This document shows, in pieces, positions 10,083-15,898 of a stretch of 64,000 bases of DNA. How positions within the stretch are numbered: the first letter of the stretch is position 1; the number at the start of each line of letters is the position of its first letter. Position numbers and translations under genes: made by a program. The DNA comes from Mycobacterium sp. Root265 (GTDB lineage: Bacteria; Actinomycetota; Actinomycetes; Mycobacteriales; Mycobacteriaceae): positions 436,651 through 500,650 of the forward strand of contig NZ_LMJA01000031.1 in the NCBI RefSeq assembly GCF_001428895.1. Direction: 5' to 3'. The notes below the pieces were generated by a model. It ran no database searches, had not been told where the DNA came from, and was given only the letters and a program-made list of their open reading frames with translations.

Positions 10083-11462
10083 GTGACAGACGCACGGCGC
10101 GACAATGTGCTGATCGTGCACTGGCATGACCTGGGCCGCCATCTCGGGGCGTACGGGCACAGCGATGTGCGCAGCCCGCGACTGGACCAGCTCGCCGCCG
10201 AGGGGATCCTGCTTGCCCGCGCGCACGCCACCGCGCCGCTGTGCTCGCCGTCGCGGGGGTCGCTGTTCACCGGCCGCTACCCGCAGAGCAACGGACTGGT
10301 CGGCCTGGCGCACCACGGCTGGGAGTACCGCACCGATGTGCGCACCCTGCCGGACATCCTCGGCAAGTCCGGCTGGCACACCGCACTGTTCGGTATGCAG
10401 CACGAGACGTCCTACCCCAGCCGCCTCGGGTTCGACGAGTTCGACGTCTCCAATTCCTACTGCGAGTACGTCGTCGAACACGCCGACACCTGGCTGCGCC
10501 AGGCACCGGCGGCTCCTTTCCTGCTCACCACCGGATTCTTCGAGACGCACCGTCCCTACCCGCATGACCGTTACGACCCCGCCGACCCCACCGCGGTGCA
10601 GCTGCCCGACTACCTGCCCGACACCCCGGCGGTCCGCCAGGACCTCGCCGATTTCTACGGGTCGATCACCGTGGCCGACGCTGCTGTGGGCCGACTGCTG
10701 GACACCCTCGCCGAGACCGGGCTGGACCGCAGCACCTGGGTGGTGTTCATGACCGACCACGGTCCGGCGCTGCCGCGAGCCAAGTCCACGCTGTACGACG
10801 CGGGCACCGGGATCGCGATGATCGTGCGGCCACCCACCGGGTCGGCGGTGCCGCCACACGTCTACGACGAACTGTTCAGCGGCGTCGATCTGGTCCCGAC
10901 CCTGCTGGATCTGCTCGGTGTCGAGGTGCCCACCGAAGTGCAGGGTCTGTCACATGCCGCGGGTCTGCTCGCACCCGCCGAGAACGACGTGCCGGTGCGC
11001 ACCGAGGTGTACTCGACAAAGACTTATCACGATTCTTTCGACCCCATCCGAGCCATTCGCACAAAGGACTTCTCGTATATCGAGAATTACGCATCACGAC
11101 CATTATTGGATTTGCCCTGGGATATCGCCGACAGCGCCCCCGGCGCCATCGTCGGCCCGAATTCGCTGAGCCCGCGGCCGGAGCGGGAGCTCTATGACCT
11201 TCGCACCGATCCTGGCGAGTCCACGAACCTTCTCGAGACGAGTTCTGGCGCCGAAATGGAGGAAGTCGCCCGTGACCTCGCACTCCGACTGAACGACTGG
11301 CGCGAGAAGACCAACGATGTCATCCCCTCCGAGTTCGCCGGCACCCGCATTTCGGAGCGCTACACACAAACGTATTTGACGATCAAGGAATGGCCGGCAT
11401 TGAGCCGCTCGGCGATTGCGGCCGACCGCGGTATCGAAGACGCCGAGCAGTCTTCGCAATAG
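10083..11462 (+). CDS. Sulfatase (formylglycine type)
   Basis: A 459-residue arylsulfatase-fold enzyme that hydrolyses sulfate esters. The sulfatase signature is CSPSRGSLFTGR, with the cysteine at about residue 54 (CxPSR) predicted to be oxidised to formylglycine. Other metal-site pieces are WHDLGRHLGAYG and VFMTDHGPALP. No signal peptide is seen, so it is probably cytosolic. An AGGAGG at 10069-10074, eight bases before the GTG at 10083, fixes that start; the GTG at 10074 lies inside the ribosome site. It heads the cassette with stf0, cysD and cysNC. The order next to stf0 matches M. tuberculosis Rv0296c-Rv0295c. Confidence 0.85.
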   Translation: MTDARRDNVLIVHWHDLGRHLGAYGHSDVRSPRLDQLAAEGILLARAHATAPLCSPSRGSLFTGRYPQSNGLVGLAHHGWEYRTDVRTLPDILGKSGWHTALFGMQHETSYPSRLGFDEFDVSNSYCEYVVEHADTWLRQAPAAPFLLTTGFFETHRPYPHDRYDPADPTAVQLPDYLPDTPAVRQDLADFYGSITVADAAVGRLLDTLAETGLDRSTWVVFMTDHGPALPRAKSTLYDAGTGIAMIVRPPTGSAVPPHVYDELFSGVDLVPTLLDLLGVEVPTEVQGLSHAAGLLAPAENDVPVRTEVYSTKTYHDSFDPIRAIRTKDFSYIENYASRPLLDLPWDIADSAPGAIVGPNSLSPRPERELYDLRTDPGESTNLLETSSGAEMEEVARDLALRLNDWREKTNDVIPSEFAGTRISERYTQTYLTIKEWPALSRSAIAADRGIEDAEQSSQ

Positions 11463-11515
11463 TTAAATTCAGCCTGACGCGAATATCCCGTCTGCGCCGG
11501 GAAAACAATAGCGGT

Positions 11516-11521
11516 TAGAGT
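11516..11521 (+). promoter_or_regulatory. Candidate -10 element (leaderless) for stf0
   Basis: TAGAGT fits TANNNT and ends seven bases before the stf0 ATG at 11529, consistent with a leaderless transcript. It would allow stf0-cysD-cysNC to be expressed without the sulfatase. Confidence 0.4.
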
Positions 11522-11528
11522 CTCGCCC

Positions 11529-12329
11529 ATGGCTCATCCGAAGGCGTATCTCGTCCTCGCATCCCAGCGCAGTGGCAGCACGCTGCTCGTCGAATCACTG
11601 CGTGCCACCGGTGTCGCCGGTGAGCCGCAGGAGTTCTTCCAGTACCTGCCCACCACCAGTCAGTCGCCCCAGCCGCGTCAGTGGTTCACCGGCGTCGAGG
11701 ACGAATCCATCCTGCGCCTGCTCGACCCGCTGGACGAGGGCAAACCGGATCTGGCGCCGGCGACCATCTGGCGCGATTACATCCAGACGGTCGGCCGCAC
11801 CCCGAACGGGATCTGGGGCGGGAAGCTGATGTGGAATCAGACCCCGCTGCTGCTGGACCGTGCCGCCGGGCTGCCGGACCGCTCCGGTCAGGGCCTGCTG
11901 TCGGCCATCCGCGACGTCGTCGGCAGCGATCCGGTGCTGGTGCACGTCTACCGGCCCGATGTGGTGTCGCAGGCCGTCTCCTTCTGGCGCGCAGTGCAGA
12001 CCCGCGTGTGGCGTGGACGTCCCGACCCGAACCGCGATGCCCGGGCCGAGTACCACGCCGGGGCAATCGCGCACGTCATCACCATGCTGCGGGCGCAGGA
12101 AGAGGGCTGGCGGAACTGGTTCGAGGAAGAGGGCGTCGAACCGCTCGACGTGTCCTACCCATACCTGTGGCGCAACCTCACCACCGTCGTGGCCACCGTG
12201 CTGGAGCAGCTGGGCCTCGATCCCCGGCTGGCGCCGGAACCGGTCCTGGAACGTCAGGCCGATCAACGTTCCGACGATTGGGTAGACCGTTATCGCGCCG
12301 ACGCACACCGAGAGGGGCTGCCGACATGA
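11529..12329 (+). CDS. stf0: Stf0 trehalose 2-sulfotransferase
   Basis: A 266-residue sulfotransferase, essentially the length of M. tuberculosis Stf0 (267). The N-terminal PAPS 5'-phosphosulfate loop is [20 protein letters not shown] followed by EPQEFFQ, the Stf0 hallmark; the 3'-phosphate-binding region is near [20 protein letters not shown]. Stf0 transfers sulfate from PAPS to trehalose, the first step toward sulfolipids. Fast-growing mycobacteria carry Stf0 and sulfated trehalose without full SL-1, so the end product here is uncertain. The stop overlaps the cysD ATG (ATGA), tying sulfotransferase to PAPS supply. Confidence 0.9.
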
Positions 12330-13243
12330 CCGCCAGTACCGACACCGTTCTGGTCGATGAGCTCCGGCTGTTGGAGGCCGAAGCCGTCCACATCATCCGC
12401 GAGGTCGCGGCCGAACTGCAGCGCCCCGTGCTGCTGTTCTCCGCGGGCAAGGACTCGATCGTCCTGCTCCGGTTGGCGGAGAAGGCTTTTCGGCCCGGAC
12501 CACTGCCGTTTCCGGTGCTGCACGTGGACACCGGGCACAACTTCGCTGAGGTCATCGAGTTCCGCGACCGGCGCACCACCGGCGTCGGGCACAAGCTGCT
12601 CGTCGGATCGGTGCAGGAGACCATCGACAGCGGCCGGGTCGCCGACCCGGGCCCGGGTGCGTCGCGCAACCGGCAGCAGACTCGCACCCTGCTCGACGCC
12701 CTGGAGGCCGGCGGTTTCGACGCGGCGTTCGGCGGTGCGCGCCGTGACGAGGAGCGGGCTCGGGCCAAGGAGCGCATCCTGAGCTTCCGCGACGAGTTCG
12801 GACAGTGGGATCCGCGCGCGCAACGGCCCGAACCGTGGTCGCTGTACAACGGTCGGATCCGCAAGGGCGAACAGGTGCGCGTCTTCCCGTTGTCGAACTG
12901 GACCGAGATCGACATCTGGCGCTATATCGAGTTGGAGAACCTCGAACTGCCCTCGATCTACTTCGCGCACGAACGTGAGGTGTTCGAGCGTGACGGCATC
13001 CTGCTGGCGGTATCGGAATTCGCCAAGCCCACCGGCACGGAGACCGCGGCGGTGGAGTGGGTGCGCTACCGCACCGTCGGCGACCTCACCATCACCGGTG
13101 CGGTCCGCTCCACAGCCACCACGATCGACCGGGTGATCACCGAGATCTCGGCGGCCACCGTCTCCGAACGCGGGGAAACCCGCGCCGACGACCGCACATC
13201 CGTTGCGGCAATGGAAGACCGCAAGCGAGAGGGCTATTTCTGA
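12326..13243 (+). CDS. cysD: Sulfate adenylyltransferase subunit 2 (CysD)
   Basis: A 305-residue PP-loop ATPase of ATP sulfurylase, catalysing ATP plus sulfate to APS together with the GTPase CysN. The PP-loop motif [20 protein letters not shown] lies at residues about 35-55; [19 protein letters not shown] and [16 protein letters not shown] are also conserved. Length is normal for CysD. It starts by ATGA overlap with stf0 and is followed 43 bases later by cysNC. In M. tuberculosis cysD-cysNC is elsewhere (Rv1285-Rv1286), so its position behind stf0 is notable. Confidence 0.93.
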
Positions 13244-13247
13244 TGAT

Positions 13248-13282
13248 GGGGCGAGCGCAGCGCAGCGGAGCGACGGGGGAAA
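13248..13282 (+). repeat. GC-rich GGGGCGAGCG...GGAGCGACGGGG repeat, copy 1
   Basis: This stretch fills the cysD-cysNC gap and ends in GGGGGAA, which also serves as the cysNC ribosome site. A shorter relative occurs at 34927-34950. The shared ends are GGGGCGAGCG and GGAGCGACGGGG; the middle expands with GCAGC units. Confidence 0.6.
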
Positions 13283-13286
13283 CAGC

Positions 13287-15137
13287 ATGAGCACGCGTCA
13301 GCTGCTGCGCATCACCACCGCCGGTTCGGTCGATGACGGCAAGAGCACCCTGATCGGTCGGCTCATGCACGACACCGACAGCCTGCCGCTGGATCATTTG
13401 GAAGCCGTCACCGACGAGGAGGGCGTGGCGGACCTGGCTGCGCTGTCCGACGGGTTGCGCGCCGAACGCGAGCAGGGCATCACGATCGATGTGGCGTATC
13501 GGTTCTTCTCCACCGAGAACCGCAGCTACATCCTGGCCGACACCCCCGGCCACGAGCGCTACACCCGCAACATGTTCACCGGTGCCTCCAATGCACACGT
13601 GGCGATCCTGCTGGTCGACGCCCGCGCCGGCGTGCTGCGCCAGACCCGCCGCCACGCCCGCATCGCAAAGCTGCTGGGCATCAAGCATTTCGTGGCCGCC
13701 GTCAACAAGATCGACCTGGTGGACTTCGACCAGGCCCGGTTCGCAGAGGTCGAGCAGGAGCTGCGCCTGGTGGCTGAGCGGCTCGGCGGGGCGGAGCTGA
13801 CCGTCATCCCGATCGCGGCCAAGCTCGGCGACAACGTCGTGCACCGCTCCGACAACACCACCTGGTACTCCGGGCCCACCCTGCTGGAATACCTTGAGGC
13901 CGTCGAGCTCTCGGCGCCGCACCCGGAGCCGTCCAGCCTGCGCCTGCCGGTGCAGTGGGTGTCCCGGCCCACCGCCGAACAGCGCCGGCGCTACACCGGG
14001 CGACTGTCGGCGGGCACCCTCAAGGTGGGCGACCCGGTGGTCAGCCTGCCGTCGGGCACCCAGTCCACCGTCACCGTCGTGGACACCCTGGACGATGAAC
14101 GCAGCACAGCGGTTGCGCCACTGTCGGTTTCCATCGAACTCGCCGACGATATCGACGTCGGCCGCGGCGATGTCTTCGTCAGCGCCGCCGACGATGCAGT
14201 GCTGCCGGTGCTGGCCCGCGAGCTGGACGCCACCGTCTGCTGGTTCCTCGACGACCCGCTGCGCGCCGGTGACCGGCTCGCACTCAAACAGGGCACCCGT
14301 ACGGTGCGAGCCACCGTGCAGGAACTGCACACCAAACTCGACCCGGAGACCCTGGATGAGGTGGACGGCCCGGTCGAGCTGTCGCTCAACGACATCGGGT
14401 CGATCACCCTGCGCACCAGTTCCATCGTGGTCGCCGACTCCTATGCCGACAACCGGGACAGTGGTGCGTTCATCCTGATCGACGAGGTGTCCAATGACAC
14501 CGTCGGCGCCGGCATCATCGCCGAGCCCCGCGAGGTCAAGCCCAGCGGACACAACCGTTCCGACATCAAGTGGCACCCGTCCTCACTGGATCGCGAATAT
14601 CGTTGGGGAAAAACGGGACAACGCGGCGCGACCATCTGGTTCACCGGTCTGCCGGCGTCCGGCAAGTCGACCCTCGCGGTCGCGGTGGAGCGGGCGCTGG
14701 TGGAGTCCGGCCGGGTCGCCTACCTGCTCGACGGCGACAACCTGCGCCACGGCCTCTCCGATGACCTGGGGTTCTCCGCGGGCGACAGGGCCGAGAACAT
14801 CCGTCGCGTCGGGCATCTGACGCGTCTGCTCGCCGACTCCGGGGTGGTCGCGCTGGCCTCGCTGGTGTCCCCGCTGAAATCCGACCGCGAACTGGCCCGC
14901 GCCCTGAACGACGCGGCCAAGCTGCCGTTCCTGGAGATCCACGTCGCCACCCCGGTCGCCGAATGCGAACGCCGCGACCCCAAGGGCCTGTACGCCCGCG
15001 CCCGGGCCGGTGAACTCAAGGGGCTCACCGGTATCGACGCACCCTACGAGCCACCGGAGAACCCGGATCTCGTCGTCGACACCACCGGCGCCGATATCGA
15101 TCAGCTGGTCGCCCAGGTCATCGCGCTGCTCGACTAA
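13287..15137 (+). CDS. cysNC: Bifunctional sulfate adenylyltransferase subunit 1 / APS kinase (CysNC)
   Basis: A 616-residue fusion. The CysN GTPase part (1 to about 430) has G1 [10 protein letters not shown]3 [12 protein letters not shown] and G4 NKID motifs, followed by EF-Tu-like beta barrels. The CysC part (about 445-616) has the P-loop [26 protein letters not shown] and the loop [10 protein letters not shown]. Together with CysD it makes APS and then PAPS, the donor for Stf0 and for sulfate assimilation. ATG 13287 is preceded by GGGGGAA at good spacing. Its stop overlaps that of tam on the opposite strand. No cysH reductase is adjacent, which points toward sulfation rather than reduction. 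Confidence 0.93.
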
Positions 15138-15898
15138 CGCACCTGTGCGACCACGAAGATCCGCCGGAACGGGAAGAAGGTGTGCCCGTCCGCGCGGGCC
15201 GGATAGGCCTGCGCCAGTTCGGGAATGATCGCCTCCCGGTACTGCTGCCACTGCAGCTCGGTGAGCCGCTCCTTCACCTGGGTCAGCGCGGTGCCCGTGA
15301 TCCAGTCCAAAACCGGTGTCTCACCCTCCAACTCATGCACATAGGTGGTTTCCCAGGCATCCACCACGCAGCCGGCGTCGGTCAGCAGCCCGGCGTACTC
15401 GACCGGCGTGCCGACCACATCGGCGTCGCGCCACGGCATATCGCGCAGCGCCTCGACGAAAGGCTCACGACGGGCCACCGCACGCACCGCGGCGTGCGAG
15501 GGGGCGTCGAAGTTTCCCGGCACCTGGAACGCGATCCACGATCCGGGCGCCAGTTGCCCGGCCCAGCGCATTACGAGCTCACGGTGTTCGGGTAGCCACT
15601 GCAGCGCCGCGTTGGAGATGACCACATCGGTATCGGCTTGCGGTGACCACTCGGCGATCCCACCGACGCGCACATCCAGACCACGACCGGTGGCCGCGGC
15701 AACCATCTCGGGTGAGGAATCCCAGCCCTGCACCACCGCGCCGGGCCAGCGCCTGCTCAGCGTCTCGGTGAGGTTGCCCGGTCCGCAGCCCAGGTCGGCC
15801 ACCCGGCGGGGCTGCCGCGCGGCCACCCGGTTCACCAGGTCGAAGAACGGCCGGCCACGGTGGTCGGCGAAGGCCAGGTAGGTGTCGGGATTCCACAT
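15134..15898 (-). CDS. tam: Trans-aconitate 2-methyltransferase
   Basis: A 254-residue SAM-dependent methyltransferase. Motif I is [15 protein letters not shown] and motif II/post I gives [32 protein letters not shown] at the N-terminus is the Tam signature, so the ATG at 15898 is chosen over a longer frame. Tam methylates trans-aconitate, an inhibitor of aconitase. The gene lies next to the stf0 region as Rv0294 does in M. tuberculosis. Its start is only 19 bases from the divergent amidohydrolase start. Confidence 0.88.

Follow-up and report, generated by a model that had tools for sequence, protein, structure and literature searches.

The closest known case of an stf0 gene accompanied by its own sulfate-activation genes is already published: in Rhodococcus qingshengii IGTS8, IGTS8_peg167-170 form a CysN2C-CysD2-Stf0 cluster with a sulfatase, and the available part of the source lists the sulfatase, CysD2 and Stf0 as upregulated when dibenzothiophene replaces sulfate (PMC8557817). 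Here we describe the same gene set, a sulfatase gene followed by stf0, cysD and cysNC, in Mycobacterium sp. Root265 (contig NZ_LMJA01000031.1, positions 436,651 to 500,650 of the forward strand); this whole stretch of 64,000 nucleotides is called the window. IGTS8 resembles the window in its four gene products and in having, beside stf0, a second complex with a fused kinase, separate from the cysDN that goes with cysH. It differs in that its sulfatase gene, judging by gene number, lies beyond cysNC whereas that of the window lies upstream in the same direction, and in that its reductive operon has its own cysDN whereas the cysI-cysH pair of the window genome has none. The available part of PMC8557817 does not survey mycobacteria and describes neither a promoter nor the loss of the kinase.

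More distant systems also tie sulfate activation to a sulfotransferase. In the rhizobial nodPQ-nodH system a second CysDN-type complex is needed for carbohydrate sulfation, but the sulfotransferase and the acceptor (Nod factor, polysaccharide) are others, and NodPQ also feeds cysteine synthesis according to a review, so that its supply is not exclusive (PMC6192434 and PMC4216712, in their available parts). The Root265 genome likewise carries an extra synthase for 3'-phosphoadenosine 5'-phosphosulfate (PAPS) besides its housekeeping one. The ATP sulfurylase and adenosine 5'-phosphosulfate (APS) kinase of Xanthomonas raxP/raxQ-raxST are required by one sulfotransferase pathway; that pathway differs in sulfating tyrosine and in having raxST in an operon with raxA and raxB (PMC4216712, same part). 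Among the matches listed in the openly licensed literature, we found no account of family-wide conservation, a derived short layout, kinase loss, a leaderless promoter or sulfatase-stf0 lockstep, and no function study of free trehalose-2-sulfate in other species.

We consider it probable that the locus as a whole is explained by a private PAPS supply linked to stf0 together with a sulfatase acting as eraser, and the evolutionary evidence for such a module is unusually clean.

Results

Linkage of a second cysDNC set to stf0

An earlier, sequence-only reading of this DNA had proposed a dedicated sulfation module, to be checked by counting cysD and cysNC copies and by comparing the locus across genomes. 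The genome holds two of each, which rules out that the window set is the sole copy. The second cysD (C2:361826) encodes a protein 64-65% identical to CysD of the window, and the second cysNC, on another contig than the window, one 50% identical to its CysNC; a third cysD was searched for in the genome and not found. Directly after the second cysD-cysNC (L036 7779-11361, C2) lies an inositol-monophosphatase-family gene, possibly cysQ. The earlier reading was right that the array lacks cysH, which adjoins cysI on another contig, away from any cysDN. Its conclusion that PAPS is therefore dedicated to sulfation fails, because the reductive branch of M. tuberculosis leaves from APS (PMC3141025, available part) and because the second cysDNC is also on a different contig from cysH.

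The two copies belong to different types. In a tree of the CysN part (midpoint rooting only, with long branches flagged by the program for a basal pair), the window copy falls in a clade spanning genera, type A (100/99), and the second copy in type B (100/99); type C forms a further clade (100/100). All 10 type-C loci have cysH immediately upstream, 9 of them together with cysI, and neither gene lies within the stretch in any of the nine type-B loci of the tree.

We followed type-A cysD and stf0 through 148 genomes of the genus and 301 of the family, which are samples with one genome per species and in which genome counts do not equal independent events. In the genus, type-A cysD was taken at 87% identity or more, where its matches rank first in the cysD match list, and stf0 at 69% or more; the family thresholds were E 1e-140 and E 1e-30, respectively, with about seven or eight first-look candidates scored per genome. 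Some cysD match occurs in at least 146 of the 148 genus genomes. Type-A cysD is present in 57, the remaining cysD standing at 63-68% identity among the matches listed, and stf0 in 108; a 109th genome (G075) with only an stf0 fragment was excluded. All 57 type-A genomes have stf0, directly upstream of cysD in 53; it lies elsewhere in three (G116, G060, G066), and a contig break intervenes in G015. Type-A cysD occurs in none of the 40 genomes that lack stf0. Because the arrangement recurs in 53 of 57 genomes, it does not reflect chance.

The same linkage holds across lineages. Type-A cysD is found in 90 family genomes (91 genes) and stf0 in 102, with both in 83, type-A cysD only in 7, stf0 only in 19 and neither in 192; stf0 immediately precedes 79 of the 91 type-A genes. 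The family threshold misses G148, in which the cysD next to stf0 is of type A but gives a match split in two. Among 20 stf0 loci from other genera, 16 have cysD and cysNC and a 17th has cysNC alone, which rules out a local mycobacterial insertion of cysDNC; a sulfatase gene lies within the stretch in 12, in variable orientation.

Some loci stand apart. G039 carries a second, decaying cassette in which sulfatase, stf0, cysD and cysNC each match only in part (L161 6542-13478), and the 3.3 Mb genome of G075 has sulfatase, stf0 and tam only as fragmentary matches (L162). A gene for a PF03601 membrane protein, a family we take to be YeiH, lies downstream of type-A cysNC in M. asiaticum (L067 10711-11901) and G116 (L147 2398-3516). 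YeiH-family sulfate exporters are mentioned in the available part of PMC8557817.

The APS kinase of type-A CysNC

We then compared the kinase half of CysNC between genomic settings. The family tally comprised 80 stf0-linked loci, namely 79 of the 91 genes and G148, one of them cut by a contig end, and the named tally 67 loci, two of them cut; L143 and L219, both with a P-loop, were kept outside as special. Copies were scored on the P-loop and on relaxed minor-motif patterns, since a stricter five-motif scan had given lower counts (70/92 family, 33/67 named) through patterns too narrow for the minor motifs. Among complete stf0-linked copies, an intact P-loop is found in 78 of 79 from the family and in all 65 named ones; it is also intact in 5 of 5 copies that are unlinked to stf0 in genomes with stf0 elsewhere. 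The exception, L279, has a frameshift upstream and a kinase domain that still scores 206 bits. By comparison, none of the six copies directly behind cysI-cysH (L211, L242/L285, L218, L215, L214, L216) has a P-loop, nor has either copy from two stf0-less genomes in which cysH is not next door (L212, L213). Pfam APS_kinase gives 203-208 bits in working copies versus 49 or less, or no match, in those without a P-loop. One genome, G357, holds one intact and one kinase-less copy. The branches of the six cysI-cysH copies lie inside the type-A clade, which places the loss of the kinase within that type. The pattern as a whole suggests that PAPS for Stf0 is what selection protects in the kinase. All six come from one genus, and a decayed kinase tail is still attached to them.

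These absences bear on a different explanation, in which the second cysDNC is a general back-up that mainly adds APS and PAPS capacity when sulfur is limiting or sulfite causes stress, and stands behind stf0 for historical reasons. Such a role is favoured by the placement of type-A cysDNC in a cysI-cysH operon in one genus, its position in G066 directly behind acyl-CoA-dehydrogenase-like and luciferase-like monooxygenase genes (L149 6720-9301), and IGTS8, where only the dibenzothiophene culture without sulfate showed CysD2 and where a route from sulfite to PAPS has been put forward (PMC8557817, available part). However, a back-up does not account for a type-A cysD that never occurs without stf0 in the 148 genus genomes, nor for the missing P-loop behind cysI-cysH, and we regard it as quite unlikely. 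A tie of the locus to sulfur supply would rest, by analogy, on the Rhodococcus proteomics. As an observation in its own right, the gene context of L149 is reminiscent of organosulfur desulfurization.

Co-occurrence of the sulfatase with stf0

The window sulfatase is presumably AtsG, a name that we take from the gene neighbourhood. At a threshold of E 1e-120 it is found in 110 of the 148 genus genomes and accompanies stf0 closely, with both genes in 107 genomes, neither in 37 and disagreement in 4: G005 and G070 (incomplete assemblies) and G119 (complete) have the sulfatase without stf0, and only G008 (incomplete) has stf0 without the sulfatase. In 40 of the 107 a distance of over 6 kb or a change of contig separates the two genes; contig breaks may account for some of these, but seven are single-contig assemblies (G006, G029, G031, G045, G105, G110, G143). 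Joint absence is scattered on a housekeeping CysD-CysNC tree, where it takes six changes, five of them forced. The tree covers two outgroups and 22 genus genomes, namely G119, 7 genomes with both genes and 14 of the 37 that have neither.

The unlinked sulfatase genes also exclude that the sulfatase is lost where stf0-cysD-cysNC sits away from tam. Eight of them were fetched, each within 1.5 kb of a tam match, and C-[ST]-P-S-R is kept in all eight. Although flagged with one stop, these genes are not broken, as seven align in one piece and five are stop-free; the stop in L317 and L320 falls only within the last five residues, and L323 aligns in two pieces. This co-occurrence is most simply explained if the product of Stf0, or a derivative of it, is the substrate of the sulfatase.

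A sulfoglycolipid locus, in which trehalose-2-sulfate would be an intermediate to be acylated and exported and the sulfatase would scavenge foreign sulfate esters, is disfavoured by a sulfatase that tracks stf0 even when unlinked. Its sulfatase domain moreover begins at residue 8, which would leave little room for a signal peptide. Acylated sulfotrehalose is nevertheless possible because the genome has two stand-alone acyltransferases that match the trehalose-2-sulfate acyltransferase PapA2 (6AEF; 556 and 488 bits). M. nivoides has an annotated papA2 (PMC13095810, available part), and AtsG was found in membrane and culture-filtrate fractions (PMC4734655, available part). Yet the two PapA2-like genes lie on other contigs than the cassette and receive no NCBIfam name, so their enzymes may act on unsulfated acyltrehaloses. 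We find this sulfoglycolipid role somewhat unlikely; free, erasable trehalose-2-sulfate fits the sulfatase better than an acylated product does.

Transcription and layout

Of 80 named relatives, 78 have a TANNNT hexamer 6-7 nucleotides ahead of the stf0 start codon, versus 1.5 expected from shuffles, in counts whose rows are related sequences. The named set consists of the best 80 of 313 stf0 loci and therefore leans towards the window. The same test found the hexamer at 1 of 68 sulfatase, 0 of 67 cysD, 0 of 63 cysNC and 0 of 59 tam starts; in the other genera it precedes stf0 in 18 of 20 loci, a count made without shuffle control. Shine-Dalgarno-like four-mers show the reverse pattern (1/80 stf0 starts versus 44/68 sulfatase starts). 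Where this spacer is 7 nt long (59 loci), positions upstream of -17 mostly stay below about 0.65 bit, the exceptions being -58, -34, -33 and -28. By the spacing rule for leaderless promoters, the pattern at stf0 predicts a leaderless mRNA. Since stf0 has its own promoter of this predicted type, there are probably two units, the sulfatase and stf0-cysD-cysNC, with read-through possible; the single four-gene transcript implied by the sequence-only reading is unlikely.

The named loci divide into sulfatase-stf0-cysD-cysNC-tam (47), the same without tam in the stretch (9), sulfatase-stf0-tam (13) and stf0-cysD-cysNC without sulfatase in the stretch (11); Mycolicibacterium neoaurum ATCC 25795 (L039) is one of those with the full cassette. 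The third of these layouts keeps the same neighbours as the window, lacks cysDNC between stf0 and tam, and is presumably that of M. tuberculosis (stf0-atsG-tam), which the earlier reading had taken as the point of reference. That polarity does not hold, as the set with cysDNC is found across genera and loci with the short layout are dispersed over the Stf0 tree. On this tree the 13 cysDNC-less loci need 12 changes, of which well-supported branches force at least 6, and their clustering does not exceed that of shuffled labels (237/500 as low). In M. deserti (L111, from 7798) 28 residues from the start of cysD remain directly behind stf0, a scar that marks the loss of cysDNC; no such remnant was found in 26 other loci at E 0.05. 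Repeated loss is a better reading than repeated gain because of this scar and because the cassette occurs in other genera. The layout without cysDNC looks derived and reduced. Comparison with relatives suggests an old gene set from which loss produced the shorter layouts.

Genes of the array

The four co-directional genes have exactly the coordinates and, by profile matches, the families that the sequence-only reading had given them, and the ATGA overlap that it described is present (Table 1).

Table 1. Features at the array and PapA2-like genes elsewhere in the genome. Positions are those of the window unless a locus is named.
Feature	Position	Strand	Evidence
Sulfatase, type I (formylglycine), probable AtsG orthologue	10083..11462	+	PF00884 140 bits from residue 8; motif CSPSR
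TAGAGT, -10-like hexamer 7 nt before stf0 ATG, predicted leaderless promoter	11516..11521	+	
stf0, trehalose 2-sulfotransferase	11529..12329	+	PF09037 352 bits; NCBIfam equivalog TrhSuTaseStf0 453.2 bits
stf0/cysD stop-start overlap ATGA	12326..12329	+	sequence
cysD, type A, ATP sulfurylase small subunit	12326..13243	+	TIGR02039 425 bits (cut-off 396.6)
G+C-rich 43-nt spacer, cysD to cysNC	13244..13286	+	
cysNC, GTPase subunit fused to APS kinase	13287..15137	+	NF004035 777 bits (cut-off 715)
cysNC kinase domain	about 14622-15080	+	APS_kinase PF01583 208 bits; motifs intact by alignment
tam, trans-aconitate 2-methyltransferase	15134..15898	-	NF010703 422 bits (cut-off 320); start inferred from match
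PapA2-like acyltransferases, own genome, outside window	L341 1291-2748; L342 1474-2970		

The sulfatase gene starts with GTG at 10083, preceded by AGGAGGT. Its product carries the C-x-P-x-R motif of type I formylglycine sulfatases as CSPSR, kept in 68 of 69 named relatives; the best solved relative is the S1_8A sulfatase 9bb9 (157 bits), and the genome has four genes of PF03781, the family of the formylglycine-generating enzyme (FGE), as candidates for that enzyme. CysD and the CysN-CysC fusion, with GTPase and kinase motifs intact, make up a sulfate-activating complex. The gap between their genes is about 2 nt in several relatives versus 43 nt here, and no second copy of this spacer was found within the window. 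We do not think that tam, tail to tail with cysNC, is part of the module; it is a neighbour that marks the site.

Stf0 exceeds the NCBIfam equivalog cut-off for trehalose 2-sulfotransferase (400 bits) and aligns without gaps to the solved Stf0 1TEX (526 bits, residues 3-265 of 266), which produced trehalose-2-sulfate in vitro (PMC10638397, available part); its closest relative among the best 80 of 313 loci is that of Mycolicibacterium sp. P9-22 (98%). Trehalose-2-sulfate is thus the likely product. An acceptor other than trehalose, whether sugar or glycolipid, for the Stf0 proteins of this clade could be argued from the other genera, where Stf0 identity falls to 51-70% with CysD holding at 81-86%; set against the cut-off and the gap-free alignment, we think this very unlikely.

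Discussion

We propose that stf0-cysD-cysNC is a three-gene operon, read as a leaderless transcript from the stf0 start. CysD and the GTPase half of CysNC would produce APS, the kinase half would convert APS to PAPS, and Stf0 would transfer the sulfate of PAPS to trehalose, yielding trehalose-2-sulfate. The window cysDNC would be kept for sulfation, and the other cysDNC could serve cysteine synthesis. The sulfatase, a separate transcription unit, would most likely be the matching eraser, hydrolysing the Stf0 product or a derivative and returning the sulfate.

Several observations weigh against this proposal. The kinase motifs of the second CysNC are also intact by alignment and its gene is followed by the CysQ-like one, so that copy could feed Stf0 as well. 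Among stf0-bearing genus genomes, 51 of 108 have no type-A cysD, and in the family 7 of 90 type-A genomes are without stf0. In G175 the type-A cysD lies behind cysI-cysH with cysNC remaining at stf0 (L143, L210), and one CysD may serve both pathways there. In evolutionary terms the absent kinase stands for about two events, one in a single genus and one in the basal pair, and this pair may never have been linked to stf0; G357, moreover, has stf0 and still carries a dead copy, and because it retains stf0, kinase loss there went with relocation and not with loss of stf0. As for the sulfatase, its separation from stf0-cysD-cysNC by a conserved stf0 promoter motif speaks against a single transcript, it is present without stf0 in the complete assembly of G119, and in 67 of the 107 genomes it adjoins stf0, so that joint loss may reflect single deletions. 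The fractions in which AtsG was found (PMC4734655, available part) do not favour a purely cytosolic eraser.

The interpretation that the sequence-only reading gave is, overall, partly supported. An extra cysDNC linked to stf0 and a sulfatase that tracks Stf0 across the genus bear out the dedicated module; exclusive provision of PAPS by the window copy does not follow, given the second intact kinase.

In the tuberculosis lineage trehalose-2-sulfate is used for sulfolipid. We hold tentatively, as a possibility still to be doubted, that it is at root an old, free and reversible metabolite of the family, made from private PAPS and erased by the sulfatase, and that a lineage lacking the private PAPS supply would later have adopted it for sulfolipid. 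As a free metabolite it could be a sulfur reserve, a sink for sulfite or PAPS, or a charged compatible solute. The archaeal 2-sulfotrehalose is chemically the same sulfated disaccharide and is reportedly an osmolyte of haloalkaliphilic archaea. The kinase-less copies offer a natural experiment on the role of APS kinase where the reductive branch uses APS. If trehalose-2-sulfate is indeed such a free metabolite, it would be the natural substrate of AtsG, which bears on why so many mycobacteria retain stf0.

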